Shown here piece after piece: positions 4,380 to 58,334 of a stretch of DNA of 64,000 bases. A program made the position numbers and the translations under genes. The notes under the pieces are model-generated. The model ran no database searches. It was not told the DNA's origin and saw nothing but the letters and a program-made list of their open reading frames with translations. Numbering within the stretch: position 1 is the stretch's first letter; each line of letters starts with the position of its first letter. The DNA comes from Nitrospirales bacterium (GTDB lineage: Bacteria; Nitrospirota; Nitrospiria; Nitrospirales; UBA8639), in the NCBI GenBank assembly GCA_022825885.1, contig JAJDVY010000050.1, positions 1 to 64,000 of the forward strand, in the 5' to 3' direction.

Positions 4380-4570
4380 CCCTTCGGCTCTGCTTCCTTC
4401 GCTTCGCTTCCTTCGCTTCGCTTCCTTCGCTTCGCTCAGGACAGGCAGGACAGGCAGGGCAGGCGTTGACACGTTCGTTATCTCTTGCCGTCATCCCCGA
4501 TCCTCGATTAAGAACGTCAAGGACAGGCTCTGATCGGGGATCCAGCGTCTCAGGGCTTGTCTTTCCGTCA
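4380..4570. repeat. Composite intergenic repeat
   Basis: This stretch has a GCTTCCTTCGCTTCG tandem, then CTCAGGACAG followed by 10-bp GCAGGACAG-type units, then the GTTGACA link. After that comes a GTCATCCCCGATCCTCGATTAAGAACGTCAAGG / ATCGGGGATCC unit. The same modules recur at 5.6-6.1, 9.65-10.1, 14.3, 19.8, 25.3 and 46.2 kb. No gene is seen in it. Confidence 0.8.
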
Positions 4571-5554: not shown

Positions 5555-6070
5555 CCCGTCATACTTGTAAATGTTCACTCATTCGTTGCCCCTTTCAGTC
5601 GATGGGTTGAGGGAGGGGCCCCCATCCGTTAGTCCACGCACCAGTGGTCATCCTGAGCTTGTCCGGCCTGTCCTGCCTGTCCTGCCTGTCCTGCCTGTCC
5701 TGAGCGTAGCGAAGGAAGCGAAGCCGACGGAAGCGGAGCCGACGGAAGCGGAGCGAAGGAACTCTCAATCAGCGACCGACTACCTACAAAAAACAGATTC
5801 TTCACTGCGTTCAGAATGACAATTCTGGGTGCTCGGAATGACAATTCTGGGGCGATCCGTCCCTTTATTCTGTCAACACCTGCCCTGCCTGCCCTGCTTG
5901 TCCTGCTTGTCCTGCCTGTCCTGCCTGCCCTGCTTGTCCTGCCTGTCCTGCTTGTCCTGAGCGAAGCGAAGGAAGCGAAGCGAAGGAAGCGAAGCGAAGG
6001 AAGCGAAGGAAGCGAAGCCAAAGGAAGTGGAGCGAAGGGAATTACTGAACACATACAAGGATGACAGAAG
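5555..6070. repeat. Composite repeat block, left arm of inverted pair around secA
   Basis: Module X (about 5555-5690) runs from TTGTAAATGTTCACTCATTCG through GGGTTGAGGGAGGGGCCCCC to ATCCTGAGCTTGTCCGGCC. It is followed by CCTGTCCTG 10-bp units. Module Y (about 5813-5872 and 6038-6068) includes GACAATTCTGGGGCGATCCG, TTCTGTCAACA and ACTGAACACATACAAGGATG. Between the Y pieces, about eight 10-bp CCTG(C/T)(C/T)CTG units (5876-5960) lead into GAAGCGAAGGAAGC repeats. X and Y recur in inverted order at 9735-10037. No gene is supported here. Confidence 0.85.
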
Positions 6071-9639: not shown

Positions 9640-10170
9640 AGAATGATCACTGTTCAGTCCCTTCGACAAGCTTCCTTCGACTTCGCTGTCGCTACGCTCA
9701 GGACAGACATTCGTTGACACGTTTCGCCGTCTCTTTCTGTCATCCCTGTATGTGTTCACTAATTTCTTGACAGAATAGAGGGACTGATCGCCCCAGAATT
9801 GTCATTCCGAAGCTTGCCCTGAGCGTAGCGAAGGGCCTAGCAAGGAATCTTGTCGTTGCAGCCGTCGAACGCCCAAAACAGCAGATCCGTTCGCAGGTCC
9901 GTCGCGTGGCTTCCTTCGACTTCGCTCAGGACAGGCCGGACAAGCTCAGGATGACCACTAGTGCGTGGACTGACGGATGGGGGCCCCTCCCTCACCCCAT
10001 CGACTAAAAGGGGCAACGAATTACTGAACACATACAATCCCCGCCCCCCTCCTGTCATCCCCGACCCCGATCGGGGATCCAGGGTCGTTGCTTTTTCCTT
10101 CATTCGTGAAGGCGAAAGAATCTGGATTCCCGATGTAAGATGTTGGGAATGACAGAATGACAGCCAGAAC
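9640..10170. repeat. Composite repeat block, right arm of inverted pair around secA
   Basis: Module Y' (about 9735-9815) reads CATCCCTGTATGTGTTCACT...TTGACAGAATA...GATCGCCCCAGAATTGTC. Module X' (about 9925-10037) reads GGCCGGACAAGCTCAGGATG...GGGGGCCCCTCCCTCACCCC...GAACACATAC. Both are reverse complements of the left block and occur in mirror order. Next comes a GTCATCCCCGACCCCGATCGGGGATCC unit and its GAATCTGGATTCCCGATG partner (about 10055-10165). The 131-codon minus-strand frame across it consists of repeat sequence and is not called as a gene. Confidence 0.85.
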
Positions 10171-10341: not shown

Positions 10342-10396
10342 CTGTTCATTCATTTTTGACTTAATGCTTTTTTTTGCATTACAGGAATTCACCAAA

Positions 10397-11542
10397 ATGT
10401 CGTCTGTATTTGCAAAGAAAATAGGGGTTATCCTTGTGCCGTTACTGGGATGTGCCCTTTGTTCTGCCGCAGGAGCACAGGACGTGTCGGATCAATCAAT
10501 TGAATTTCTGGATGCCATCGAAATTGCCGACACACTGACCGCAGCGGAAGACCGGAAAATCAGGATGCCCATAGCCAAACCCGATACCACGACGTTGGTG
10601 CCGTTGAGCGATAAGCCGTTAAGCGGCCTCATGGACGCCACGATTGCCCGAACGTCCTTCGTCCCGCAAGGCAGACCGAAGCCTATCCTCTTCCGGGATG
10701 CCATTGCGGACCGCATGGGACTGTGGCAAACCGTTGCCCCGGTGCCCCGGACGGCAGAGCGCCGCATCAGTCTGGCCGCCCTTGACACCACTTCGGCGGT
10801 GCCGTTCAACGGCCTCCCGGCCGCCACGATTGCCAAGGCGTCCATTGCCCCGCAGGAAAGGCCTGAACCGGAGCCCCCCCGGGATGCCATTGCAGACCGT
10901 AAAGCACTTCGGAAAACCGTCAGGCTGATCAAGTCCGAACGGCCCCCGTATCCGCAAGCGGCTCGCAGGGCGGGCTGGGAAGGCACGGTCGTGTTACGCA
11001 TCACCGTCGGGACCGGCGGGGGCGTGGAACACGTCGTCACACAAAAGAGTACCGGCTTCGATGCCCTTGACGAGAGTGCCATGGAATCAGTCAAACGATG
11101 GCAATTCGATCCGGCAAAAGACGGAGAATTTCCCGTTTCCGCCGTGGTGGACCTGCCCATCAGATTCGACCTTGACGAGTATGGCATCCAATTCTCGAAA
11201 GAAGAGCCGGAACCTGAGCCGGAACCGGAACCCATAAAAGAGAAGAAACCCGCCAGGCTCGTCAAATCCGAACGTCCCCCATATCCGCAAGAAGCTCGCA
11301 AGCAAGGCTGGGAAGGGACTGTCCTCTTACGCATCACCGTCGGAACGGGCGGGGACGTGGAAAACGTGAAAATCCGGGAAAGCTCGGGATTTCCCGAGCT
11401 TGACGAGAGCGCCGCACAGTCCGTCAAAACATGGCGATTCGACCCGGCGAAAGAGGGAGACGATCCCATTTCCTCCGCGGTCGATCTGCCCGTCAGGTTC
11501 GACCTTGAAGAATATAAAGAAGAGACAAGCAACGAAGATTAA
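10397..11542 (+). CDS. Exported protein with two tandem TonB C-terminal domains
   Basis: From the ATG at 10397 the product is 381 residues. It starts with a signal-like segment (GVILVPLLGCALCSAAGAQ) that could be cut after AGA or at a weak lipobox LLGC. Two homologous TonB C-terminal domains follow, each with SERPPYPQ.AR..GWEGTV.LRITVGTGG and later FDPAK. They start near residues 175 and 290 and are separated by an EPEPEPEPEP linker. Before them lies a ~150-residue region with an internal duplication (ATIA..S..PQ.RP.P...RDAIADR). Classical TonB keeps an uncleaved membrane anchor; this one may be released or lipid-anchored. It lies 21 bp before the receptor gene, so the two are probably co-transcribed. 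The function of a double domain is unknown. Confidence 0.8.
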   Translation: MSSVFAKKIGVILVPLLGCALCSAAGAQDVSDQSIEFLDAIEIADTLTAAEDRKIRMPIAKPDTTTLVPLSDKPLSGLMDATIARTSFVPQGRPKPILFRDAIADRMGLWQTVAPVPRTAERRISLAALDTTSAVPFNGLPAATIAKASIAPQERPEPEPPRDAIADRKALRKTVRLIKSERPPYPQAARRAGWEGTVVLRITVGTGGGVEHVVTQKSTGFDALDESAMESVKRWQFDPAKDGEFPVSAVVDLPIRFDLDEYGIQFSKEEPEPEPEPEPIKEKKPARLVKSERPPYPQEARKQGWEGTVLLRITVGTGGDVENVKIRESSGFPELDESAAQSVKTWRFDPAKEGDDPISSAVDLPVRFDLEEYKEETSNED

Positions 11543-11563: not shown

Positions 11564-14260
11564 ATGACCGATTATCGAATTATTTCATCATTGATGATTC
11601 TGTTGTGCCTGTTGGTCATTCCGGTTTCGCAGTCATTTGCACAGGACGCCGCGGGTCAGGACACAGACGTGATCAAACTCGAAGAAGTGATCGTGGTGGG
11701 CTCCCGAGTTCCCACGAGATCGGCCCATGATTCTCCGGTGCCGGTGGACGTGATTGAAGGGAAAGACATGAGGAACTACGGGGTCAGGGACATGAACTCC
11801 CTCCTCAGGGCCACCGTGCCGTCCTACAACGTCAACCAGCAACCCATCGGGGACGCCGCCACGCTGGTACGCCCGGCGAACCTACGCGGTTTGCCCCCGG
11901 ACTCCACCCTGATCCTGCTCAACGGCAAACGGCGTCACCGGGGATCGGTTCTTACGTTCCTGGGCGGCGGCATTTCGGACGGGGCGCATGCGACTGACCT
12001 GGCCTCATTCCCGGCCATTGCCCTCAAGCGCGTGGAAGTCCTGCGCGACGGCGCGGCCGCGCAGTACGGGTCCGACGCCGTGGCCGGCGTGATGAATTTC
12101 GAGTTGAAAGACGCTCCGGACAGTGGCAGTGCGGAAGCCCGCTGGGGTCAGTATTATGCGGGAGACGGCGCCACCAACAGTATCGCAGCCAACCTGGGGG
12201 TTCCCCTGGATCTCCCGTTCATCCAATCCGGGTTTGCCAATTTCAGTTTCGAATATGGAACGTCAGACTGGACCGACCGCAGCATCCAACGCAACGATGC
12301 GCAGGGACTGATAGACGCGGGCAACAGGCACGTGGTGAGCAGCCAGTACACACGGGAACCCAATGCCATGGTCTGGGGTGCACCCGAGGTTCAGTATGAC
12401 TATAAACTCTTCGGCAACTTCGGGATGGACCTGAACAGCAAAACCGAACTCTACGGCTGGGCCAACTATGCCCAACGCAAAATAGAAGGCGGGTTCTACT
12501 ATCGCAATCCCAATACGCGAGGCGGGGTATTCGATGGGCCGGTGGTCGATAATGATGGTACATACAAAACAAACGCGGAACCGGATGTTGCTTTTGCCGA
12601 TCCGGATGACCCCACAGACGCTGAAAAAGAGCGATATGAAAAACAGATTAAAGACGGTCTAAAGAGCGGGAGATATGTTGACACAGTTAAGGTCGCGGAC
12701 CTGACCGGCGAAGGCTGCCCTGCCGTGCCGGCGAACGACGCGGCTGACTACAGCCAAACAATCGAAGACCTTCCCTCTAACTGCTTCATGTTTAACGAAA
12801 AATTTCCCGGTGGCTTCACCCCGTTCTTCGGAGGAACCGTGCGAGACTGGAGCGTTGCCGGGGGTATCCGCGGGGACATCTCTGACTGGCACTATGATTT
12901 CAGTGCTGTGCTCGGGCAACACAGCACGGACTTCTTCATGAGGAACACCATCAATCCGCAACTCGCCTCAATGCGGACCAATATTCCGACGACCTATAAC
13001 CCGGGCATGTACACGGAGACGGATCACGTGTTCAACCTGGATCTCTCCAGGTCGCTACAAACCGCGATGTTCCCCTCCCCCTTGAACGTCGGCATCGGAC
13101 TGGAGTACCGGGTGGAGCAATTCGAAGTTACGGCCGGCGGGGAGAATTCCTGGTATAGAGACGAAGATTCCAAAGGTCTTGCGGCACAGGGCTTCGGTAT
13201 CGGGTCCAACGGCTTTACCGGATTCCACCCCGATATCGCGGGGACAAACAACCGGGGCAGCTACGCCGGCTACGTGGATTTGGAAACCAACCTGTCCAAG
13301 GACCTGCTGGTCGGCGTGGCAGGGCGGTATGAGGACTTTGAAACCTTCGGAGACACCCTGAACGGCAAGTTCAACACCCGTTGGCAAGCCACGCCCATGA
13401 TGGCGCTTCGCGGTTCGGTCAGCACGGGATTCCGTGCCCCAACCGTGGGACAGGCGAACATTCAGAACGTGACCACGGCGTTCGTCGAGGGGAGACTCGC
13501 TAACGTAGGAACCTATCCGGTGAGCCATCCGGTTGCGACCCTGGTAGGGGCGGAGCCGCTGAAGCCGGAAAAATCCTTCAACCTGTCCGCCGGCACGGTA
13601 GTTGACGTCGGCAAGCTGTCCGTGACCATCGACTACTACCGGGTCGCGGTACGGGACCGTATCGCACGGAGCGCCCAAATTCCTTTGAGCCCGGCTCAGC
13701 TTGCTGAGGCTCGACGCTTAGACTTAGGAGATATCGAGAAGGTGGCCTTCTATGCCAACGCGTTCGATACCACCACAAACGGGTTGGACATCGTGGCAAC
13801 TTACCCGATGAAGATAGCCGGCGGGAACACCCTCTGGACGTTCGCGGGCAACTATAATCGAACCGAGGTCACCGATATCAACAATGAAAAGGCTATCGAT
13901 GCCAAGCGAGTAATCCAATTGGAAAAAACTCTGCCGTGGTTCCGGTTCACGTTGACGGGCGATCACAGACAGGGGCCCTGGCGGTTCCTGGGCCGGGTCT
14001 ACATGTACGACGGGTTTACGGAATTTACGACTGATGGTGGAGATAACACCAGAGTCAACGCTGGTCCGCAGTGGCTCGCGGACCTGGAAACCTCGTACAC
14101 CATGAAAACCGGGCTGACGATCTCAGTAGGGGCGCAAAACCTGTTTGATTCGTATCCTGACCGATCAAGGCCTGGGGTTTCGGGCACCAAGTATCCGGAG
14201 TATGCGCCCTTTGGATTCAACGGCGGATTCTATTACCTGAGGGCGTTGTATGCGTTCTAA
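11564..14260 (+). CDS. TonB-dependent outer-membrane receptor
   Basis: The 898-residue product begins with a signal peptide (LMILLCLLVIPVSQSFAQD). A possible TonB box lies around DVIKLEEVIVVGSR. The plug domain follows (SPVPVDVIEGKDMRNYGVRDMNSLL; later LRGLPPDSTLILLNGKRRHRG and VEVLRDGAAAQYGSDAVAGVMNF). A long beta-barrel ends in an aromatic residue (GGFYYLRALYAF), as expected for barrel insertion. AAAGGAG precedes the ATG. The substrate cannot be read from sequence: no haem, cobalamin or siderophore gene is nearby, and I see no riboswitch. It follows the tandem TonB-like gene and precedes a TPR-TonB-ExbBD set, which likely forms one energised uptake system. Confidence 0.93.
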   Translation: MTDYRIISSLMILLCLLVIPVSQSFAQDAAGQDTDVIKLEEVIVVGSRVPTRSAHDSPVPVDVIEGKDMRNYGVRDMNSLLRATVPSYNVNQQPIGDAATLVRPANLRGLPPDSTLILLNGKRRHRGSVLTFLGGGISDGAHATDLASFPAIALKRVEVLRDGAAAQYGSDAVAGVMNFELKDAPDSGSAEARWGQYYAGDGATNSIAANLGVPLDLPFIQSGFANFSFEYGTSDWTDRSIQRNDAQGLIDAGNRHVVSSQYTREPNAMVWGAPEVQYDYKLFGNFGMDLNSKTELYGWANYAQRKIEGGFYYRNPNTRGGVFDGPVVDNDGTYKTNAEPDVAFADPDDPTDAEKERYEKQIKDGLKSGRYVDTVKVADLTGEGCPAVPANDAADYSQTIEDLPSNCFMFNEKFPGGFTPFFGGTVRDWSVAGGIRGDISDWHYDFSAVLGQHSTDFFMRNTINPQLASMRTNIPTTYNPGMYTETDHVFNLDLSRSLQTAMFPSPLNVGIGLEYRVEQFEVTAGGENSWYRDEDSKGLAAQGFGIGSNGFTGFHPDIAGTNNRGSYAGYVDLETNLSKDLLVGVAGRYEDFETFGDTLNGKFNTRWQATPMMALRGSVSTGFRAPTVGQANIQNVTTAFVEGRLANVGTYPVSHPVATLVGAEPLKPEKSFNLSAGTVVDVGKLSVTIDYYRVAVRDRIARSAQIPLSPAQLAEARRLDLGDIEKVAFYANAFDTTTNGLDIVATYPMKIAGGNTLWTFAGNYNRTEVTDINNEKAIDAKRVIQLEKTLPWFRFTLTGDHRQGPWRFLGRVYMYDGFTEFTTDGGDNTRVNAGPQWLADLETSYTMKTGLTISVGAQNLFDSYPDRSRPGVSGTKYPEYAPFGFNGGFYYLRALYAF

Positions 14261-14274
14261 GGATCTTGGCAGTA

Positions 14275-14715
14275 CATTCACCCTGGCCTTCTCCCGTGTC
14301 GGATTACGCTTCGCCTGTCCTGAGCGTAGTCGAAGGGCTAATCCGACCTACTGTCATTCCCGACGCTTGTCCCCGACAGTCTTAATCGGTGATCCAGTGT
14401 ACTTATGGAATCCAGGGTCTTTGGCCTGCACGAACGAAACGCAGGGAAAGACAAAGCAAGGAACTGGATCCTCGATTACTAATAGCCTGTCCTTGACATT
14501 TTTAATCGAGGGTCGAGGATGACAGAAGGAGAACGAAGGAAAAGATCCTGGATTCCCGCTTTCGCAGGAATGACAGAAAGAGAAGGATGACAGAAGGAGA
14601 ACGGAGGAGAAAGATCCTGGATTCCCGCTTTCGCAGGAATGACAGAAAGAGAAGGATGGCAGAAAGAGAAGGATGACAGAAGGAAGAGTCAGGGATGACA
14701 TTACCAACTCCTTAC
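14275..14715. repeat. Intergenic repeat array
   Basis: The stretch includes a CGCTTCGCCTGTCCTGAGCGTAGTCGAAGG unit (about 14300-14338) and a TTCCCGACGCTTGTCCCCGACA unit. Two head-to-tail copies of GATCCTGGATTCCCGCTTTC followed by GCAGGAATGACAGAAAGAGAAGGATGACAG span about 14544-14700. No gene is supported; the long minus-strand frame across it is mostly antisense of the TPR gene. Confidence 0.8.
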
Positions 14716-14734
14716 AAACCATATTGAGGCAGTT

Positions 14735-15790
14735 ATGAACAGACAACTCTTGCGAATCATGTCTATCGGTGTTTTGGGCCTGACGCTGGGGCTGGCCCTT
14801 CCCCTGACGAGCCCGGCGGCGGATGAAGCCCAAGCCTTGTTTAACCAGGGCGCCACGCAATCCAATAATGGCGAGTTCCAGCAAGCCGCCGAATCGTTGA
14901 AACAGGCGCTGGAAATCTTTCCCCGTTTTGCCGCGGCACATCATCTCCTGGGTGTCGTCACGTTCACGGGCCTGCAACAACCCGACCAGGCCGTCACCCA
15001 TTTGAAGAAAGCCGTTGAACTGCACCCCAATTTCGCCAGGGCCTATTTTGACCTCGGGTTGGTCTATCAAACCCAGAAGAACATGGAGGCCGCCAAAACG
15101 GCTCTGCAAAAAGCCCTTGAGGTTTATCCGGGCTTTGCCGACGCGCAACTCAACCTGGCGTTTGCCTATGACCAACTGGGAGAACGGGAACAGGCCATCG
15201 GCGCCTACCAGGCCGTGCTGAACAATGATCCCAAACAACTCACCGCCCGGTTCAACCTGGCGACGCTCTATGATATGCAGGGCGATACGGACCAGGCCAC
15301 GAAGCAACTGCAAGAATTGACGAGCGTGGACCCTCAGGACGCCAATGCCTGGCTCCTGCTGGCCCAGTTGGCCGAAAAGTCCCAAAACGATTCGCAGGCG
15401 ATCGAAGCGTACCAAAAGGCCCTGGGAATCACGCCTGACTTGCTTGACGCCCATTATGCCCTGGGGTACCTCATGCAGGCGCAGGACCAACCGGAACAGG
15501 CCGTGAATCACTTCAAGGAGGTGGTCCGACTGAATCCGAAACACGCCGAAGCGCAACTCAACCTGGGCGTGCTCCTGGCGAACCTCGACAAGCTCGATGA
15601 AGCTGAACAAGCCTACCTGGCCGCGCTGAAGTTGAACCCGAACCTGGTCGAGGGCTATTACAACCTGGGAGTGTTCTACGAGTTTCACCGCAAGGATACG
15701 GATAGCGCCATCGCGCAATACCGGAAATACATCGAACTCGGCGGTCAGGATGACCGGGTTCGCAAGCTGCTGAAAAAAGTCGGGTCGTGA
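14735..15790 (+). CDS. Periplasmic TPR-repeat protein
   Basis: The 351-residue product has an N-terminal signal peptide (IMSIGVLGLTLGLALPLTSPAADE). About nine tetratricopeptide repeats of 34 residues cover residues ~30-340 (recurrent pattern: A...L..AL...P..A.A...LG). TPR arrays are protein-binding scaffolds. The stop codon overlaps the GTG start of the next gene (tonB-like) by four bases, which indicates translational coupling. A role in organising the TonB/ExbBD complex or its receptor on the periplasmic side is an inference from position. Confidence 0.85.
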   Translation: MNRQLLRIMSIGVLGLTLGLALPLTSPAADEAQALFNQGATQSNNGEFQQAAESLKQALEIFPRFAAAHHLLGVVTFTGLQQPDQAVTHLKKAVELHPNFARAYFDLGLVYQTQKNMEAAKTALQKALEVYPGFADAQLNLAFAYDQLGEREQAIGAYQAVLNNDPKQLTARFNLATLYDMQGDTDQATKQLQELTSVDPQDANAWLLLAQLAEKSQNDSQAIEAYQKALGITPDLLDAHYALGYLMQAQDQPEQAVNHFKEVVRLNPKHAEAQLNLGVLLANLDKLDEAEQAYLAALKLNPNLVEGYYNLGVFYEFHRKDTDSAIAQYRKYIELGGQDDRVRKLLKKVGS

Positions 15791-16695
15791 ACCACGCTGC
15801 CGCCATGAATCCTTTCGAGCAGGACTCGTTTTCCCTGCGATTCGGGACGTGGTCCGTGGTGCTGCACGGCGTCTTTTTCGTGCTCGTCAGTCTCGTGCAT
15901 TTTTCCCTTGACGTGGAAAAACCCCCGCCGACGGTCAAGGTTACCTTTGTTGAAATCCCGCCGCCCCCCGAACCCGAGCCGGTTGCCGAACCTGAGGCCC
16001 CGGCCCTGCTCCAGCCGCAACGGCAGATGCAACCGCAACCGGTCCAACGGAAACAAATTCAGCCTACGCCGACACCGCCGGACATTTCTCAACCGGTCGA
16101 GATGCCTGACGTCGTTCCGCCACCGCCCCAACAACAACCGCCGCCCCAGCCCGTGAAACGGCGACTCCTTCAGGATAGCCGTGCCACGGACACCCTACAG
16201 GCACGAAACCTGACCAAAACCACGAGACGGACGACCCGCACGACAACAACAACCAAGGTTGAGGAGCCCCCATCGCTGTTCGTCCCCGGATTTTCGACCG
16301 TCGCCGCCCTGGAAGGCGCCGCGAACCGGCACATCGTCCGCACGTCTCTCCCGTCAACGGCTCCCGTTCGTTCAAGAAAAACCTTGCAGACCGCGACCGG
16401 TGCTGAAGCTCACACGCAGACCAGCGTCGGCGTGTTGCGCAGAATTCATCCGTTGTATCCGTTGATCGCCAAAAAATCCGGGTGGGAAGGGACGGTCCTC
16501 GTTCGCGTGACGGTCGAGAAGAACGGCAGGGCCAGTCAAGTCGACGTGTCACGGAGCAGCGGACATAAAGTGTTGGATGACGCCGCGCTGAAAGCCATCA
16601 GACGATGGACGTTCCGCCCCGCACGGGACGGGAACATCCCCATCCGCAGCGTCGTGGTCATTCCCCTCAAGTTTTCCTTAAAAGAGCACGGCTAA
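15787..16695 (+). CDS. tonB: TonB family energy transducer
   Basis: The 302-residue protein has the classic layout. A short cytoplasmic start leads to one transmembrane helix (SVVLHGVFFVLVSLVHFSL). A long proline-rich periplasmic span follows (PPPPEPEPVAEPE and PPPPQQQPPPQP). The C-terminal TonB domain occupies residues ~210-300 (HPLYPLIAKKSGWEGTVLVRVTV and ALKAIRRWTFRPARDG). TonB carries energy from the ExbBD motor to outer-membrane receptors. GTG 15787 overlaps the previous stop; ATG at 15805 is the alternative start. ExbB and ExbD follow directly. Confidence 0.92.
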   Translation: MNHAAAMNPFEQDSFSLRFGTWSVVLHGVFFVLVSLVHFSLDVEKPPPTVKVTFVEIPPPPEPEPVAEPEAPALLQPQRQMQPQPVQRKQIQPTPTPPDISQPVEMPDVVPPPPQQQPPPQPVKRRLLQDSRATDTLQARNLTKTTRRTTRTTTTTKVEEPPSLFVPGFSTVAALEGAANRHIVRTSLPSTAPVRSRKTLQTATGAEAHTQTSVGVLRRIHPLYPLIAKKSGWEGTVLVRVTVEKNGRASQVDVSRSSGHKVLDDAALKAIRRWTFRPARDGNIPIRSVVVIPLKFSLKEHG

Positions 16696-16725: not shown

Positions 16726-17343
16726 ATGACTGAAATATTCGAATTTGGTTTCATTAAAGCCCTGATGGCCGGTGGGCTGCTCATGCTTCCCATCATCCTG
16801 TGTTCAGTGGTGGCCCTGGCCATTATTCTTGAACGCGCCTGGTTTTTTTACAAGTTACCGTCCACGGACAAGGCCGATGAGATGATTACGCTGGTCACCA
16901 AGGGCAAATATGACGATGCCCTTTCTCTCAGCGAGGAGACTGAACATCCCGTGTTTCGGGTGTTGGCCTCGGGGATTCGCTCGCGCTCCGACGCGCCGGA
17001 AAAGGCCATGGAAGCCACGGGCATGCTCGAGATCAGCCGCCTGAAAAAAGGACTGCCCTCGTTGGACACCATCATTACGCTCTCCCCGTTGTTGGGATTA
17101 TTGGGGACCATCATCGGGATGATTGATTCCTTCGGCATCATGGCCATTGAAGGGATGGGCAGCCCGCATGCCGTCACCGGCGGCGTCGCCGAGGCGTTAA
17201 TCTGTACGGCCGGCGGCATTACCGTGGCCGTGCTGGCCCTCATCCCCTACAACTACTTCCTGGTTCGCACGGAACGGATAACCGAACAGATCGAACATTA
17301 TGCCACGCGCAACGAATCAGCCCTGCAAACCACGGCTGTTTAG
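16726..17343 (+). CDS. exbB: MotA/TolQ/ExbB proton channel subunit
   Basis: A 205-residue inner-membrane protein with three transmembrane helices (residues ~13-37, ~115-140, ~155-180). The MotA/TolQ/ExbB signature region is TIITLSPLLGLLGTIIGMIDSF, followed by AVTGGVAEALICTAGGITVAV. It forms the stator channel that turns proton flow into motion of TonB. It lies 30 bp after tonB and 8 bp before exbD, in the same operon. Confidence 0.94.
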   Translation: MTEIFEFGFIKALMAGGLLMLPIILCSVVALAIILERAWFFYKLPSTDKADEMITLVTKGKYDDALSLSEETEHPVFRVLASGIRSRSDAPEKAMEATGMLEISRLKKGLPSLDTIITLSPLLGLLGTIIGMIDSFGIMAIEGMGSPHAVTGGVAEALICTAGGITVAVLALIPYNYFLVRTERITEQIEHYATRNESALQTTAV

Positions 17344-17351
17344 GTGATAGC

Positions 17352-17765
17352 ATGAAACTGTCTAAAAGTGACCAGAAAAAAGCCCGGATCGAGATTATTC
17401 CCATGATCGACACCATGTTTTTCCTGTTGGTGTTTTTCATGATCTCGACCCTGTCCATGACCCTGCAGAAAGGCATGGAAGTGAACCTGCCGAAGGCCAG
17501 TTCCGCGGCGGATGATCTTCCCGAACAAGTCACCCTCACGATCTCCGATAAGGGCGACCTCTTCTTCAATAAAGACCGTTGTTCGATCTCGGACCTTGAG
17601 TTGCGGCTTCATGATCTCCTGTATTATGGAGAAAAACCCGCGGTCGTCATCAACGCCGATGAAGCGGTTTCCCATGGTCAAGTGATCGAGGTCATGGATG
17701 CCGTGCGGGAAGCCGGCATTTTCGACTTTGCCATTGCGACCAAGCCGGACAAGGCCACGTCGTAG
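17352..17765 (+). CDS. exbD: Biopolymer transport protein ExbD
   Basis: A 137-residue ExbD/TolR protein. A short cytoplasmic N-terminus leads to one transmembrane helix. The start contains IEIIPMIDTMFFLLVFFMISTLSM with the conserved membrane aspartate, which is essential for proton coupling in this family. A periplasmic domain follows. With ExbB and TonB it completes a motor separate from the TolQR pair at 39.9-41.1 kb. The gene converges with the DUF4143 ATPase gene, leaving 58 bp between the stops. Confidence 0.94.
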   Translation: MKLSKSDQKKARIEIIPMIDTMFFLLVFFMISTLSMTLQKGMEVNLPKASSAADDLPEQVTLTISDKGDLFFNKDRCSISDLELRLHDLLYYGEKPAVVINADEAVSHGQVIEVMDAVREAGIFDFAIATKPDKATS

Positions 17766-17823: not shown

Positions 17824-18972
17824 CTACAGCGTTCTGTTTCGGAGCACCTCGACGAAATCGGAAAAGGGAAGGACTTCGATGCCGTCTTGCATCATTCGAC
17901 GGCTGTGCCCGCAATACACCAGTATTTTCCTTCTGATTCCTTTCAGACCGGCAATCGCCCGGAGACCTTTGAGGTACTCGGGTCGAATCGTGTCCGTGGA
18001 CTTTGCTTCAATGGCAATTTTGTCTTTTCCTTGAATCAGGAGAAAATCAACCTCGACGTGTCTGGATTCTGCGGGAGACCAGTAGAACACTTCTTCGAAG
18101 TCGTCAAACGTGTCTTTTTGAAACATCAGCAAGGTAAACATCAATCCTTCAAACAGCGGGCCTCGCTCTTCTACCGTCACGGGTCCGTATTGGCGCTTGA
18201 TCCCCCGAACCAGACCGGGATCGATAAAATAACATTTTGGGCGTTTCCGCTCACGAACGCGCAGCTTGGCGTCATAAGCACTGAGAGTCTTGAGAAGAAG
18301 CGTATCCTGCAGGATCTGAAAAAATCCCGAAACCGTAGGGCGCCCGACTTCGCAGTCCCTGGCGATATTCGACAGGTTTATCGTCTGTCCGTGTAAGAGT
18401 GCCGCGACGGGAAGAAAGCGGGAAAAGCCCGCGAGGTTGCGAACAATGGCTTCGGCCTGAATTTCTTCTTTGAGATACGTTTGGACGTAACTTTTCAACG
18501 TTTCCCGCTTGTCTTCAGCATGAAGGACCAGTGGGATTGTCCCCATGTCCAATGCCGCATTCAGACAAAAATCTTCTCCCATTTCCATGGGGGTTAACGG
18601 ATACAGGTAGCGGGTGCTGGCCCTTCCTGCCAGTAAATTGACTCCTGCGCGTCGCAGCTTTCGCGCACTGGAGCCGGTGAGGACAAAGCGCAACTTTTTA
18701 TCCTCTATCAGACGATGAATCTCGTTTAAGAGATTGGGGAGGCGTTGGATTTCGTCAATGAAGACCCATTGTCCGGCTTTTAAGGAGGAGAGTTCTTCGT
18801 AAAACGTCCTGGGTCTGACGAGATACCGTTGGAACGTTTCTTCATCCAGGAGCGAAACCTCATGGTTGGCCAGACGAAGGCTGCGAACCAACGTGGTTTT
18901 TCCCGTGCCCCTCGGGCCTAACAGAAAGAAACTGGATTTGGGGCATTGAAAGAGGCGAGCATAGAATTGCAT
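17824..18972 (-). CDS. AAA ATPase with DUF4143 domain (copy 1)
   Basis: The 382-residue protein has an N-terminal AAA_14-type ATPase: Walker A GPRGTGKTTL at ~residues 19-28, Walker B WVFIDEIQRLPN, and sensor LTGSSARKL. A C-terminal DUF4143 nuclease-fold domain contains VDFLLIQGKDKIAIEAKSTD (a D..E.K-like pattern). Such proteins are widespread and often sit in accessory regions; their role is not settled. A second, clearly diverged member lies at 50.1-51.3 kb. The gene is flanked by ordinary genes on opposite strands. A palindrome lies immediately before its start. Confidence 0.88.
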   Translation of the reverse strand: MQFYARLFQCPKSSFFLLGPRGTGKTTLVRSLRLANHEVSLLDEETFQRYLVRPRTFYEELSSLKAGQWVFIDEIQRLPNLLNEIHRLIEDKKLRFVLTGSSARKLRRAGVNLLAGRASTRYLYPLTPMEMGEDFCLNAALDMGTIPLVLHAEDKRETLKSYVQTYLKEEIQAEAIVRNLAGFSRFLPVAALLHGQTINLSNIARDCEVGRPTVSGFFQILQDTLLLKTLSAYDAKLRVRERKRPKCYFIDPGLVRGIKRQYGPVTVEERGPLFEGLMFTLLMFQKDTFDDFEEVFYWSPAESRHVEVDFLLIQGKDKIAIEAKSTDTIRPEYLKGLRAIAGLKGIRRKILVYCGHSRRMMQDGIEVLPFSDFVEVLRNRTL

Positions 18973-37025: not shown

Positions 37026-38384
37026 TTACTCCGAAAACGGAGACCAGGCAGGAGAACTATGGTGGATCCCGCCTTTCGTCAACCGTTCCAGCCCTGTCCC
37101 GTCGTAATAAATCATGTAAATGTGACTCTGTCCTCTTCGCGTCGAACTGAAGACCAGGTGACGGCCGTCCGGCGCCCATGAAGGCGAATCGTCGATTTCG
37201 CTTGGGGGGCCGCTCGTCACTCGAACGCGACGCTTCCCGTCCACGGAAATTCGGCACACCTTGAGCCCATAGCCGGGTATGCGGCAGACGTAGGCGATCC
37301 AATCTCCCCGCGGAGACCAAGCCGGGGCGGCATTATACCCCCCATACGTCAACCGTCGGACCTTCGTCCCGTCGGCCCTCATAATGTAAATTTGCGGTTG
37401 ACCGGTCCGGTCTGATGTAAAAGCGAGTTCTCGTCCATCCGGCGACCACGTAGGCGACAATTCCGCACTGCGCTTTTTGGTCAATTGGATTTTCTCTTCC
37501 GTGTCCAGGTTCATGACGAAAATGTCGGAATCCCTCTTCTTGGTGGACGCATAGGCCAACCATTGACCGTTCGGAGAAACGGCCGGAGTGATATTCAACG
37601 TTTGAGACGGCACCAGGATTCGCCTGTTCTTCTTGCCCGACCCTTTGTCCAACTCGAGACGCACGATTTCCTGATTGTTGCCATGATAGGTCGTATACAC
37701 AACGGCGCGGCGGTCCGGCGACCAGTCCGGCATGAGACTTAATACGGGGTCCGACGTGATGCGCTTGGGACCGAACCCATCGTAATCCATCTTGTATAAA
37801 TGCCGTTTGCCTGCCTTGTCTTCGGATACATAGATGATCTTGGTCTCGGCGATACCGGGGTCCCCCGTGTAATACGCGACTAAGGCGTCAGCCCACCGGT
37901 GCACCATTGACCGCAGGCGTCTCACGGTAATCGGACCACCGGCATACCGTTTCCCAAGCGCGATCAAATCCGTCTCCCCGCCATCGTAGGCACAGGCCTC
38001 CAACAACAATTTTCCATCCTTTCGACCGATCCGTCCCCACGTGACCACCGGAGCCGTGCTTGCCTTGGCTCTCGCGATGGGGGCCTCTTCCTTACACCCG
38101 GCCTTGGACAGCGGCAGCGCATCCGTGGCTCGTTCAAGCACCTTGAACACGTGAGTGCGCCGCAAGTCAGCCTTCAGAATCGTGTTGACTTGCTTGCCGA
38201 TTCCGGAGTCATCCTCTTGCGGGTTCTCACTCCCGGCAAACCCCATGATCCAGATGGGAATTTTTTGAAATTCCGACCGTTGCGTTTCCAAAAACACTTC
38301 GGCGTTCTTCTCCTGCGCATACCCGACAAACGGCAGAACGGAAAGCAAGACCAGCAAGACCAGTGGCGTGACGTGTTTCATCAT
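37026..38384 (-). CDS. tolB: Tol-Pal system beta-propeller protein TolB
   Basis: The 452-residue protein has a signal peptide (VLLVLLSVLPFVGYA), an N-terminal domain and a six-bladed WD40-like beta-propeller. Repeats include YVSEDKAGKRHLYKMDYDG, TPAVSPNGQWLAYAS and SPTWSPDGRELAFTSDRTGQPQIY. TolB binds Pal and other envelope proteins in the periplasm during cell division. It overlaps the tolA-like gene by four bases in a tolQ-tolR-tolA-tolB order. Confidence 0.95.
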   Translation of the reverse strand: MMKHVTPLVLLVLLSVLPFVGYAQEKNAEVFLETQRSEFQKIPIWIMGFAGSENPQEDDSGIGKQVNTILKADLRRTHVFKVLERATDALPLSKAGCKEEAPIARAKASTAPVVTWGRIGRKDGKLLLEACAYDGGETDLIALGKRYAGGPITVRRLRSMVHRWADALVAYYTGDPGIAETKIIYVSEDKAGKRHLYKMDYDGFGPKRITSDPVLSLMPDWSPDRRAVVYTTYHGNNQEIVRLELDKGSGKKNRRILVPSQTLNITPAVSPNGQWLAYASTKKRDSDIFVMNLDTEEKIQLTKKRSAELSPTWSPDGRELAFTSDRTGQPQIYIMRADGTKVRRLTYGGYNAAPAWSPRGDWIAYVCRIPGYGLKVCRISVDGKRRVRVTSGPPSEIDDSPSWAPDGRHLVFSSTRRGQSHIYMIYYDGTGLERLTKGGIHHSSPAWSPFSE

Positions 38385-39892
38385 GAATTCGGGTTGACCT
38401 TAAATTTGTGTTGAACCCGACAAAAGGGTTTGGTCACCTTTGCGGGAAAAGGCGGCAAGGCGGTCTCCATGACCGCACGTTTCGCGAGCACGTCAAATTT
38501 CTCGTTTCCCGAGGATTGGACGACGTCCAGGCCCGCCACCCGACCATCCCGCTTGACACGAAAAGCCAGGATCGCCGGCGACTCGACACGATAATGGTAC
38601 CGATAAATTTTTCCATGAACGTCATCAATTTTTTCCTCGACGTCCGCCCAATAGGGATTTTTTTGGGAACAGAATCCCGCCCTCCCCAGACCACGCCTTT
38701 CCTCTGTGCCGCTCTCCGTTCGTTTGGAGAACGGCTGGGGGTCAAAAACCAATAGATCGGGAACAGAAACAGCATCGACCTCCGGCCTTGGAGGAACATC
38801 CGGCTCGGACGCGGTCACCGGAGTCGTGGCCGGCGAAGGGACCGGGTCTTGGACATCGGCCAACTCCGGAGCCTGAGGGGGCACGATTGTGGGAAGCGAT
38901 TGATTCCGGGATTCGGCTGCGCGTGCCGGGGGCACGGGTTCAGAAACGAGCGGAACCGCTTGTGTTACGGGCGGCAAGGTCTTGTTCTTGGGATTTCTTT
39001 TGGGAATCCTCACCGATTGAATGGCTTCCTTCAACGACTCCGCCGTGCTGCTCTTTCGCGCCGTTTTCCTCGGAGTTTCCTGTTTCCGCACCGCAGGCGA
39101 TGCCACGGCTGCCAGGCGAGGCGCCCGGGCGGGCAAAGTAATGTCCGGTGATTCAGAAGTCTTGGGCGCGTCCCGTCTCGGCTGACGTTCTGACGCGACA
39201 GCCGGATTCACGCGTTTGGACACCCGTTGCGGTTTCCTGGGGACGACGGTGGCGTCGACGGCCTGCTTCAATTTTGGGGCCAGCAGGTCAACCTTCTCAG
39301 CGGGAGCGGGCCTGGGCGTGGACGTCTTCCCGACAACCAATTTCGGAGATTGCGGGGGCGCTTTGAAGGCCGGCACGTCCACCTCCACGGCAGACGACTG
39401 TTGAACGGGCGCAGAGGCCGAAGGCCGGCCACGCGCAGCCTGTTGGGGCAATGCCGGAGTTTGCGGTTTTGGCACGACCACGGAATCCAGTGCGCCCATA
39501 AGCGACTCCGTTACCCGTTCCGGCACCCTCGGCTTCTCTTGAGGAATGGGATTGGGAGGAGTGACGGCTTTTCTCTGCGGCACAGCCTTTGGAGCCTTTC
39601 TGGTCTTCGTCTTGGGAGGGGGAACCTTCTCGGCTTTTCTTGCCGGCTTGGACTTCTTGGCCGGTGAAACAGTCGGAGACGCCGAGATGGCCGGAAGCGT
39701 GACGAGCGTGACCTCGTAAGACCCTGAGGACTGTTCGAGCGATGAGGCAAAACGCAAACTCAGGAACGCAACGAACACGACCGCGTGAATGACCGCCGAA
39801 CCGGCAAGAGGCCAAGACAGCCGTTCCGCCACCGAGTCGTCATGATCCGGCAAATGAAACGACAAGAGACTGGAAGGCGCCGCATACGACAT
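38381..39892 (-). CDS. tolA: TolA-like / TonB-family spanning protein
   Basis: The 503-residue protein has a membrane helix at ~28-48 (AGSAVIHAVVFVAFLSLRF) and a very long Pro/Lys/Ala-rich periplasmic region. It ends in a TonB/TolA-type domain (AILAFRVKRDGRVAGLDVVQSSG, ALPPFPAKVTK). It links TolQR in the inner membrane to outer-membrane parts. The stalk is proline-rich like TonB rather than the helical stalk of E. coli TolA, so naming it TolA rests on its operon: tolR lies 14 bp upstream and tolB overlaps downstream. Confidence 0.88.
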   Translation of the reverse strand: MSYAAPSSLLSFHLPDHDDSVAERLSWPLAGSAVIHAVVFVAFLSLRFASSLEQSSGSYEVTLVTLPAISASPTVSPAKKSKPARKAEKVPPPKTKTRKAPKAVPQRKAVTPPNPIPQEKPRVPERVTESLMGALDSVVVPKPQTPALPQQAARGRPSASAPVQQSSAVEVDVPAFKAPPQSPKLVVGKTSTPRPAPAEKVDLLAPKLKQAVDATVVPRKPQRVSKRVNPAVASERQPRRDAPKTSESPDITLPARAPRLAAVASPAVRKQETPRKTARKSSTAESLKEAIQSVRIPKRNPKNKTLPPVTQAVPLVSEPVPPARAAESRNQSLPTIVPPQAPELADVQDPVPSPATTPVTASEPDVPPRPEVDAVSVPDLLVFDPQPFSKRTESGTEERRGLGRAGFCSQKNPYWADVEEKIDDVHGKIYRYHYRVESPAILAFRVKRDGRVAGLDVVQSSGNEKFDVLAKRAVMETALPPFPAKVTKPFCRVQHKFKVNPNS

Positions 39893-39906
39893 TACATCAT
39901 TCCAGC

Positions 39907-40353
39907 TTACAGGGGTTTAAAGATCTCTTCTTTCATCATGGTCCCCTGGGGGTTCGTGACCATGCCCAACCGTTCGATTCCCACCCCCTTGACTTCATCC
40001 ATGACCTGGACGATCCGGCCATAGGGAACGCGTCGATCGGCTCGAAGGTAGACCGACACGAGGGGATTCGACGCTTTGGCTTCACCCAGCCGTTTCCGTA
40101 AATCAAGCAACGTGACAAGGTCTTTGCCCAAGTAGACCCGCCTGTCGGGTTCAATGGTAATCACGAGACGCTCCATGGGCACGACGGTATTCGATTGCGA
40201 ACGCGGAAGCGTAATATCAATGCCCCGGTGCAGCATCGGCGTCGTCACCATAAAGATCACCAACAGCACAAGCACCACGTCGACGAGAGGAACGATATTG
40301 ATTTCGGCAAGAAACCGGCGATTCCGGGGTTCGACCATCACGAGCGACTTCAA
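39907..40353 (-). CDS. tolR: TolR / ExbD-family protein
   Basis: The 148-residue protein has the ExbD/TolR start INIVPLVDVVLVLLVIFMVTTPM, with the membrane aspartate needed for proton coupling. A periplasmic domain follows (GKDLVTLLDLRKRLGEA, VSVYLRADRRVPYGRIVQVMDEV). Its start overlaps tolQ by four bases. It pairs with TolQ to power the TolA-like protein. Confidence 0.94.
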   Translation of the reverse strand: MKSLVMVEPRNRRFLAEINIVPLVDVVLVLLVIFMVTTPMLHRGIDITLPRSQSNTVVPMERLVITIEPDRRVYLGKDLVTLLDLRKRLGEAKASNPLVSVYLRADRRVPYGRIVQVMDEVKGVGIERLGMVTNPQGTMMKEEIFKPL

Positions 40354-57854: not shown

Positions 57855-58334
57855 TTAAAGGAGTTTCACCAGCGTGGCTACGACGCCAATGCCGACAACC
57901 AGCATCGAGCCCAGACGAATTGTGAGTTGCAGGGTCAACCGGGCTTCCAATTCCTTCATCTGGTGGTTGAACTGGGCTTCCAGTTCCTTCATCTGGTGAG
58001 TCAACTGGGCTTCCAGTTCCTTCATCTGGTGAGTCAACCGGGCTTCCAATTCCTTCATCTGGTAGTTGAACTGGGCTTCCAGTTCCTTCATCTGGTGAGT
58101 CAACTGGGTCTCCAGTTCCTTCATCTGATGGGTTAACCGGGTTTCCAATTCTTTCATCTGATGGGTCAACCGAGCCTCCAATTCCTTCAAGTCGTGCTTG
58201 GTGGCTAGCTTCTCATCAATCAACTGCGCCTGGGAGTCTGCGAGCACTTCGGCTTGGGATTCCGGCATGCCCGCCTGTGTCAGACGCTTCACGAACGTAT
58301 GTGTATCAAAACTGAGCGTGCTCATCCCGTTCAC
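57855..58334 (-). CDS. DUF1640-like membrane protein with hendecad repeat array
   Basis: The 159-residue protein shares its layout with the gene at 5.05 kb: LSFDTHTFVKRLTQAGMPESQAEVLAD, a charged helix, and a single C-terminal membrane helix (LGSMLVVGIGVVATLVKLL). Its middle consists of seven 11-residue units, ELEA(R/Q)LTHQMK and variants, plus an eighth worn unit. Units come in a higher-order R-Q-F pattern (ARLTH, AQLTH, AQFNH). Eleven-residue periodicity suggests a right-handed coiled coil. Copy number could change by slippage. Function is unknown. Confidence 0.75.
   Translation of the reverse strand: MNGMSTLSFDTHTFVKRLTQAGMPESQAEVLADSQAQLIDEKLATKHDLKELEARLTHQMKELETRLTHQMKELETQLTHQMKELEAQFNYQMKELEARLTHQMKELEAQLTHQMKELEAQFNHQMKELEARLTLQLTIRLGSMLVVGIGVVATLVKLL
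57930..58180. repeat. 33-bp tandem repeat array
   Basis: Seven to eight units of about 33 bp, CAGTTCCTTCATCTGGTGAG and following, encode the 11-residue repeats of the overlapping gene. Units differ by a few bases each, and groups of three recur, which indicates block duplication. Confidence 0.9.

Follow-up and report, generated by a model that had tools for sequence, protein, structure and literature searches.

In the usual teaching, the Ton system works by a direct handshake, with anchored TonB on one side and the box of the receptor on the other. For TonB and its receptors, beta-augmentation is an established mode of TonB-box binding (PMC11658791), and a segment of TonB is known to bind ExbD (PMC10771500). 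The nearest described protein to the one reported here is VreA (PA0674) of the Pseudomonas aeruginosa PUMA3 system, an exported and mostly soluble periplasmic protein in which an N-terminal part derived from a TonB-dependent receptor (TBDR), with a predicted TonB box, is joined to a TonB/TolA-like C-terminal domain (CTD); it has an STN signalling domain, and its partners are an ECF sigma factor and a FecR-like regulator (PMC2729926). MxcH-type receptors (NCBIfam NF038079) likewise have a receptor-associated TonB CTD outside the inner membrane. FusB and HasB are TonB paralogues, each specialised for one uptake system. In the Vibrio TonB2 system the TPR accessory protein TtpD2 is encoded with the Ton system and is essential to it (PMC6957404). 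VreA apart, the literature searched, mostly papers open without subscription, yielded no account of an exported protein with a box-linker-CTD build encoded in a Ton operon; multi-CTD TonBs may have been described earlier, on bioinformatic grounds, in papers beyond it.

Here we describe such a protein, encoded at 10397..11542 in a window of 64,000 nucleotides from a Nitrospirales bacterium (positions 1 to 64,000 of contig JAJDVY010000050.1, assembly GCA_022825885.1; features lie on the forward strand unless marked otherwise). The product, a TonB paralogue of 381 residues, consists of a predicted signal peptide, a TonB-box-like strand, a flexible linker and two TonB CTDs. An earlier in-frame ATG lies at 10364; the start at 10397 is at the position favoured by most orthologues. 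Pfam TonB_C (PF03544) matches the protein twice, with E = 8e-46 for the whole protein. CTD1 was placed at 10940..11173 by genome domain search, AlphaFold2 and Foldseek, and CTD2 lies at 11273..11506, with 83% DNA identity between the two segments. An AlphaFold2 model built on 18 orthologues contains two separate CTD folds, with block mean pLDDT mostly above 85-90, and leaves residues 17 to 155 disordered. The best solved Foldseek matches of both CTDs are TonB CTDs (9ddz, 9dc4 and 6i97), the matches including the Neisseria TonB CTD and a TonB CTD complexed with the receptor FoxA. The preliminary description of this window had recognised both the two CTDs and an EP-rich linker, and was right on each count: the sequence EEPEPEPEPEP lies between the CTDs, in a stretch at 11183..11248. 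The linker is disordered, and is strongly proline-rich only in this short stretch; DNA repeat comparison detected in it a duplicated unit with copies at 10615..10734, containing RDAIADRMGLWQTV, and 10801..10920, spaced by 186 nt and 72% identical. Pfam identified neither a plug nor a beta-barrel domain in the protein. Within the genus both CTDs are under purifying selection (dN/dS 0.25 for CTD1 and 0.22 for CTD2), compared with a dN/dS of 0.57, at 59% identity, for the linker stretch that follows the box-like island.

The gene stands at the head of the genome's Ton genes. As the preliminary description had it, a TonB-dependent receptor follows directly (11564..14260, 898 residues, plug and barrel by Pfam), its start 21 bp downstream and preceded by an AAGGAG site, and a classical TonB, at 15787..16695, begins 1.53 kb past the receptor. 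This TonB has the SxxxH anchor motif, a segment resembling the ExbD-binding one (TVKVTFVE) and a single CTD (16447-16680), and is succeeded by ExbB of the MotA/TolQ/ExbB family (16726..17343, Pfam) and ExbD (17352..17765). Between the receptor and tonB lies a gene for an exported TPR protein (14735..15790), identified by Pfam, and the operons of relatives keep it in this place, after the exported CTD/receptor genes and ahead of tonB. The genome inventory comprises one TonB, one TolA-like protein, two ExbD/TolR proteins and six receptors, the second ExbD/TolR protein belonging to a separate Tol cluster at 37026-40353 on the reverse strand, which encodes TolB-like, TolA-like (with a weak TonB_C match) and TolR/ExbD-like proteins. 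With one TonB and two ExbD/TolR proteins, the operon is therefore the sole Ton system, the one that the exported protein must serve; and since a single Ton motor supplies six receptors, access of receptors to the motor is a real problem. Other features of the window include interspersed repeats, among them a 69-nt tandem repeat, in the receptor-TPR gap (14261-14734), which is shorter in most relatives; a reverse-strand ATPase-like ORF beginning with the P-loop GPRGTGKTT (17824-18972), found beside exbD at three loci of the genus (L044, L047 and L056); a minisatellite of 9-nt units (TGTCCTGCC) with AGCGAAGGA-type repeats at 5648-6041, with related stretches at 4392-4464 and 9655-9945; and a 33/99-nt tandem repeat at 57932-58189, with 85-89% matches and a unit that is a multiple of three.

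The N-terminus of the exported protein has the form of an export signal. Residues 1-27 (10397..10477) make up a rule-based predicted cleavable signal peptide, with a positively charged n-region, a hydrophobic core and then the site CSAAGA/QD; alanine at the -1 position is nearly invariant among orthologues, and polar residues come next. The preliminary description held that a signal peptide replaces the normal TonB anchor. The export-type N-terminus and the absence of the SxxxH motor motif, which 26 of 27 operon TonBs carry and which has only two matches, probably by chance, in the exported set, agree with this, but hydrophobicity alone does not separate the two kinds of segment, the value over 19 residues being 2.17 here and 2.08 for the TonB anchor. 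Taken together, the N-terminal sequence fits a type I signal, and an uncleaved anchor is unlikely. The protein had also been called soluble or lipidated. It does contain LLGC, but the candidate lipobox cysteine is missing from two of 11 genus members (G001 and G006) and from nearly all orthologues beyond the genus, and a PROSITE-type pattern fits only 2 of the 30 orthologues. Because the cysteine is not conserved while the alanine at -1 nearly always is, lipidation is unlikely and the lipoprotein reading was set aside.

How the protein compares with the described systems can now be stated. It shares with TonB of the ExbB-ExbD-TonB complex the CTD fold and sequence (PF03544), the operon and a paralogous CTD branch; unlike TonB it has an export signal, a receptor-like box and, in this genus, a tandem CTD. 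Since two defining features, the SxxxH anchor and the ExbD-binding segment, are absent from its sequence, it is best classed as an unanchored TonB paralogue and not as a TonB transducer in the strict sense. FusB and HasB differ from it in being inner-membrane anchored with a single CTD. Unlike VreA, it carries a strand-type box in a disordered tail, one or two clear TonB CTDs and a place in a Ton operon. Signalling of the VreA type was rejected, Pfam matching no STN domain in the protein and no FecR being found in the genome; matches to sigma-70 region 4 sit on other contigs. Its CTDs match the N-terminal 91 positions of the 792-position NF038079 profile, at 95 bits against a cut-off of 925, but protein and receptor are separate ORFs (10397-11542 and 11564-14260), whereas the CTD of MxcH is fused to the receptor. 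TtpD2 parallels, by description, the neighbouring TPR gene and not the CTD protein. The preliminary remark that this layout has no described role still holds, in that we found no described family with a defined function.

Directly after the signal peptide, every orthologue carries a short conserved island that the preliminary description had missed. In this protein linker window scoring and dN/dS place it at residues 35-48 (IEFLDAIEIADTLT, 10499..10540). The N-terminal island peptide is IEFLDAIEIADTLTAAE here and PVETLDTIEVPATFVIRE in a single-CTD orthologue, and receptors of the same genomes carry VETLDPVVVTAT, IEQLDPIVITAT and ITQLDPVIVTAS at the equivalent place; the box peptide of the neighbouring receptor is VIKLEEVIVVGSRVPT, and its TonB box region (VIKLEEVIVVGSRV) lies at 11669..11710. 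Beyond the genus the consensus is typically [VI]E[TQ]LDxIEV[PT][GA]T, and L38, E42 and R53 (numbering of the exported protein) are invariant in a 19-sequence alignment. Within the genus the island has drifted to FLDAIEIADT, yet its dN/dS is 0.21, with 82% identity over residues 34-46.

Several comparisons connect this island with receptors. When each 14-residue window of the linkers was scored against 35 TBDR boxes of the same genomes, the island was the window most like these boxes in 26 of 30 orthologues and came first of 150 in this protein, and a relaxed TonB-box pattern was found in 16 of 19 non-genus orthologue linkers, against 0.3 expected from shuffles, and in only one of 11 genus members; the orthologues are kin, and these box counts overstate their independence. 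The block similarity of the island to TBDR boxes reached z = 3.7 beyond the genus (0 of 300 column shuffles) and z = 2.75 inside it (1 of 300). Its similarity to TonB's ExbD-binding segment was at chance in the same block test (z = 0.1-0.6), and an ExbD-docking motif was discarded as a reading of the island. A strict 10-mer PSSM trained on the 35 boxes missed the motif both here and in most orthologues, because a fixed glutamate replaces a hydrophobic residue of the receptors and the genus also has A-D, not T-A; the box of this protein is degenerate, with A-D at the usual T-A/G positions and a glutamate within the strand. AlphaFold2 models of the exported protein and of a single-CTD orthologue, from shallow alignments and with disordered tails, gave no intramolecular docking of the N-terminal box. 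On these sequence comparisons the island is akin to the TonB boxes of receptors encoded by the same genomes, clearly so in orthologues beyond the genus and in degenerate form here, and is unlike the ExbD-binding motif of TonB. With this box-like island at one end and CTDs at the other, the protein would have a receptor-type handle and TonB-type hands.

The preliminary description is also silent on a second conserved island, RDAIADRKALRKTVRLIKSERP, at residues 162-183 before CTD1 (10880..10945). With its RDxIADRK motif, 97% identity and a dN/dS of 0.026 in the genus, it is the most constrained part of the exported protein. TonB linkers hold a similar LxD..A element, for example KRRLLQDSRATDTL in the TonB of the window.

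Comparison across relatives separates what is old in this locus from what is recent. The tandem-CTD protein occurs in nine members of the genus, this one included, so that a chance origin of the layout is excluded, and the same receptor directly follows the exported gene in all 12 genus members with a readable junction; in two members, G007 and G010, the protein has one CTD and the receptor is present. Among f1 members outside the genus, and in family f2, the exported protein has about 190-200 residues, a single CTD and no adjacent receptor, and its gene usually adjoins secA, followed by the TPR and TonB genes and, in f1, also by ExbB-ExbD. A box-to-CTD profile used across the order recovered the protein in f1 and f2 and not in families f3 and f4; matches outside f1 and f2 in a phylum-wide search were weak and mostly covered the CTD and linker, not the box-bearing form. 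A CTD tree of 66 rows and 82 columns splits into a group of operon TonB CTDs and a group of exported CTDs, both containing members of f1 as well as of f2; support at the fork itself is weak (60/78). CTD2 forms a single clade (100/98) nested in the genus, as an intra-genus duplication of CTD1 would. Judged from the tree and gene order, the exported CTD protein is an old TonB paralogue whose gene opens the Ton operon in two families of Nitrospirales, and the single-CTD form without a receptor appears as the ancestral state, to which receptor and tandem CTD were added within this genus. The second CTD can therefore not be essential to the basic function, and a tandem CTD as a general conserved design was ruled out, only this genus having it. 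The double-CTD protein paired with a receptor, as first reported, is thus real here but represents late, genus-level states of a far more widespread form, and the proposed role as a receptor plug partner does not fit a component of the Ton system whose ancestral operon has no adjacent receptor. At L055 811-5254 and L067 978-5170 (both reverse strand), in other members of the family, exbB and exbD are separated by a receptor gene and an amidohydrolase gene; receptors have therefore joined the operon more than once. A tandem-CTD ORF with a signal-like N-terminus in Terriglobia (L174 6878-7591) has no TonB-box-like stretch before its first CTD and is probably an independent case.

Two further genus members, G002 and G008, have neither the exported gene nor the receptor in the operon, and their TonB (L046 5749-6444 and L048 2-766, both on the forward strand, the latter cut by the contig end) bears an island 2 and a CTD of the exported type (FRDTTADRK..., and DGEF in place of DGN), preceded by upstream sequence of the TonB type. 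The SxxxH anchor is seen in the G002 protein, the G008 ORF being the truncated one; the CTD tree includes G002 only, the G008 CTD having been missed by the extraction pattern and assigned by reading its sequence. These chimeras look like gene conversion or fusion between paralogues, and fit the idea that either CTD type can replace the other at the end that contacts the receptor.

Architecture, operon place, paralogy and selection can be read from the sequence of this gene and its relatives. For function, our tentative preference, which we hold as plausible and no more firmly than that, is that the exported protein acts as an accessory link, a relay or adaptor, of the genome's single Ton system. 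A relay is proposed because the CTD of TonB would bind the box of the exported protein and the exported CTDs would bind the boxes of receptors. Anchored TonB would capture the N-terminal box in the periplasm by beta-augmentation, as it does that of a receptor, the exported CTD or CTDs would capture the TonB box of a receptor, and the pull would pass from TonB through the adaptor to the receptor. With its two CTDs an adaptor of this genus could engage a pair of receptors or a single dimer, and the adjacent receptor may be its favoured client, the box having drifted to a lineage-specific version. A soluble, dedicated periplasmic intermediate that is pulled by TonB via its own box and pulls receptors via its one or two CTDs, possibly in head-to-tail chains, is possible but doubtful. 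For a relay speak the two CTD folds like those of solved TonBs, the similarity of the first island to receptor boxes, the purifying selection on both islands and both CTDs, the conserved place of the gene in the sole Ton operon, and the TonB of G002 and G008, whose exported-type CTD gives the impression that the relay was bypassed by building its receptor end into the anchored protein. Against it, the box is degenerate in this protein, the strict PSSM is blind to it and AlphaFold2 gave no docking; the long linker of anchored TonB should reach receptors unaided; and the two genus members without the exported protein keep one to three receptors.

The main rival to a relay is a competitor with the same binding properties. 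In E. coli, periplasmic fragments of the TonB CTD can be dominant-negative, and the parts list for a soluble competitor or buffer is identical (a box, CTDs, no anchor): the CTDs would fill the boxes of receptors and the box would fill the CTD of TonB, and transport would be damped or timed whenever motor or substrate is in short supply. However, the gene's operon-like grouping with those for receptor, TPR protein and motor points to a positive role, selection on both CTDs and both islands exceeds what a mere decoy needs, and the chimeric TonB of G002 and G008 suggests that the exported CTD type can serve in a transducer, so that we regard a competitor as somewhat unlikely. A lineage-specific structural or regulatory protein, whose islands bind the TPR protein, peptidoglycan or ExbD and whose resemblance to a TonB box is incidental, would account for the strongest constraint lying in island 2 and not in the box, for the similar element in TonB linkers and for the nearly constant company of the TPR gene, TtpD2 being essential for the Vibrio TonB2 system (PMC6957404). 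But the similarity of the box to receptors of the same genomes beats the column-shuffle controls, and this explanation seems quite unlikely.

The two remaining alternatives put the protein elsewhere in the chain. It might keep its N-terminus uncleaved and act from the inner membrane as an atypical second transducer, alone or together with ExbBD, as a hydrophobic stretch matching the TonB anchor would allow; yet the protein has neither SxxxH nor an ExbD-binding-like motif, keeps a small residue at -1 with polar residues after it, and would have its conserved box directly at the membrane, all of which make such a transducer improbable. Distinctly improbable, too, is a receptor-dedicated bridge in which the tandem CTDs would join one copy of the neighbouring receptor to another, or to a different TBDR, independently of anchored TonB. 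The receptor junction present in all 12 readable genus members and the confinement of both CTD duplication and receptor to it would suit a bridge, but G007 and G010 have the receptor and yet one CTD, and because the exported protein exists beyond the genus without an adjacent receptor, bridging cannot have been its original role.

An unanchored box-plus-CTD protein as a middle link in the Ton chain appears to be undescribed. A conserved member of the operon that lacks an anchor and bears both handle and hand would be a third, mobile Ton partner, whether as relay, competitor or bridge. Anchorless proteins annotated as "TonB" can be old, selected components, not fragments.
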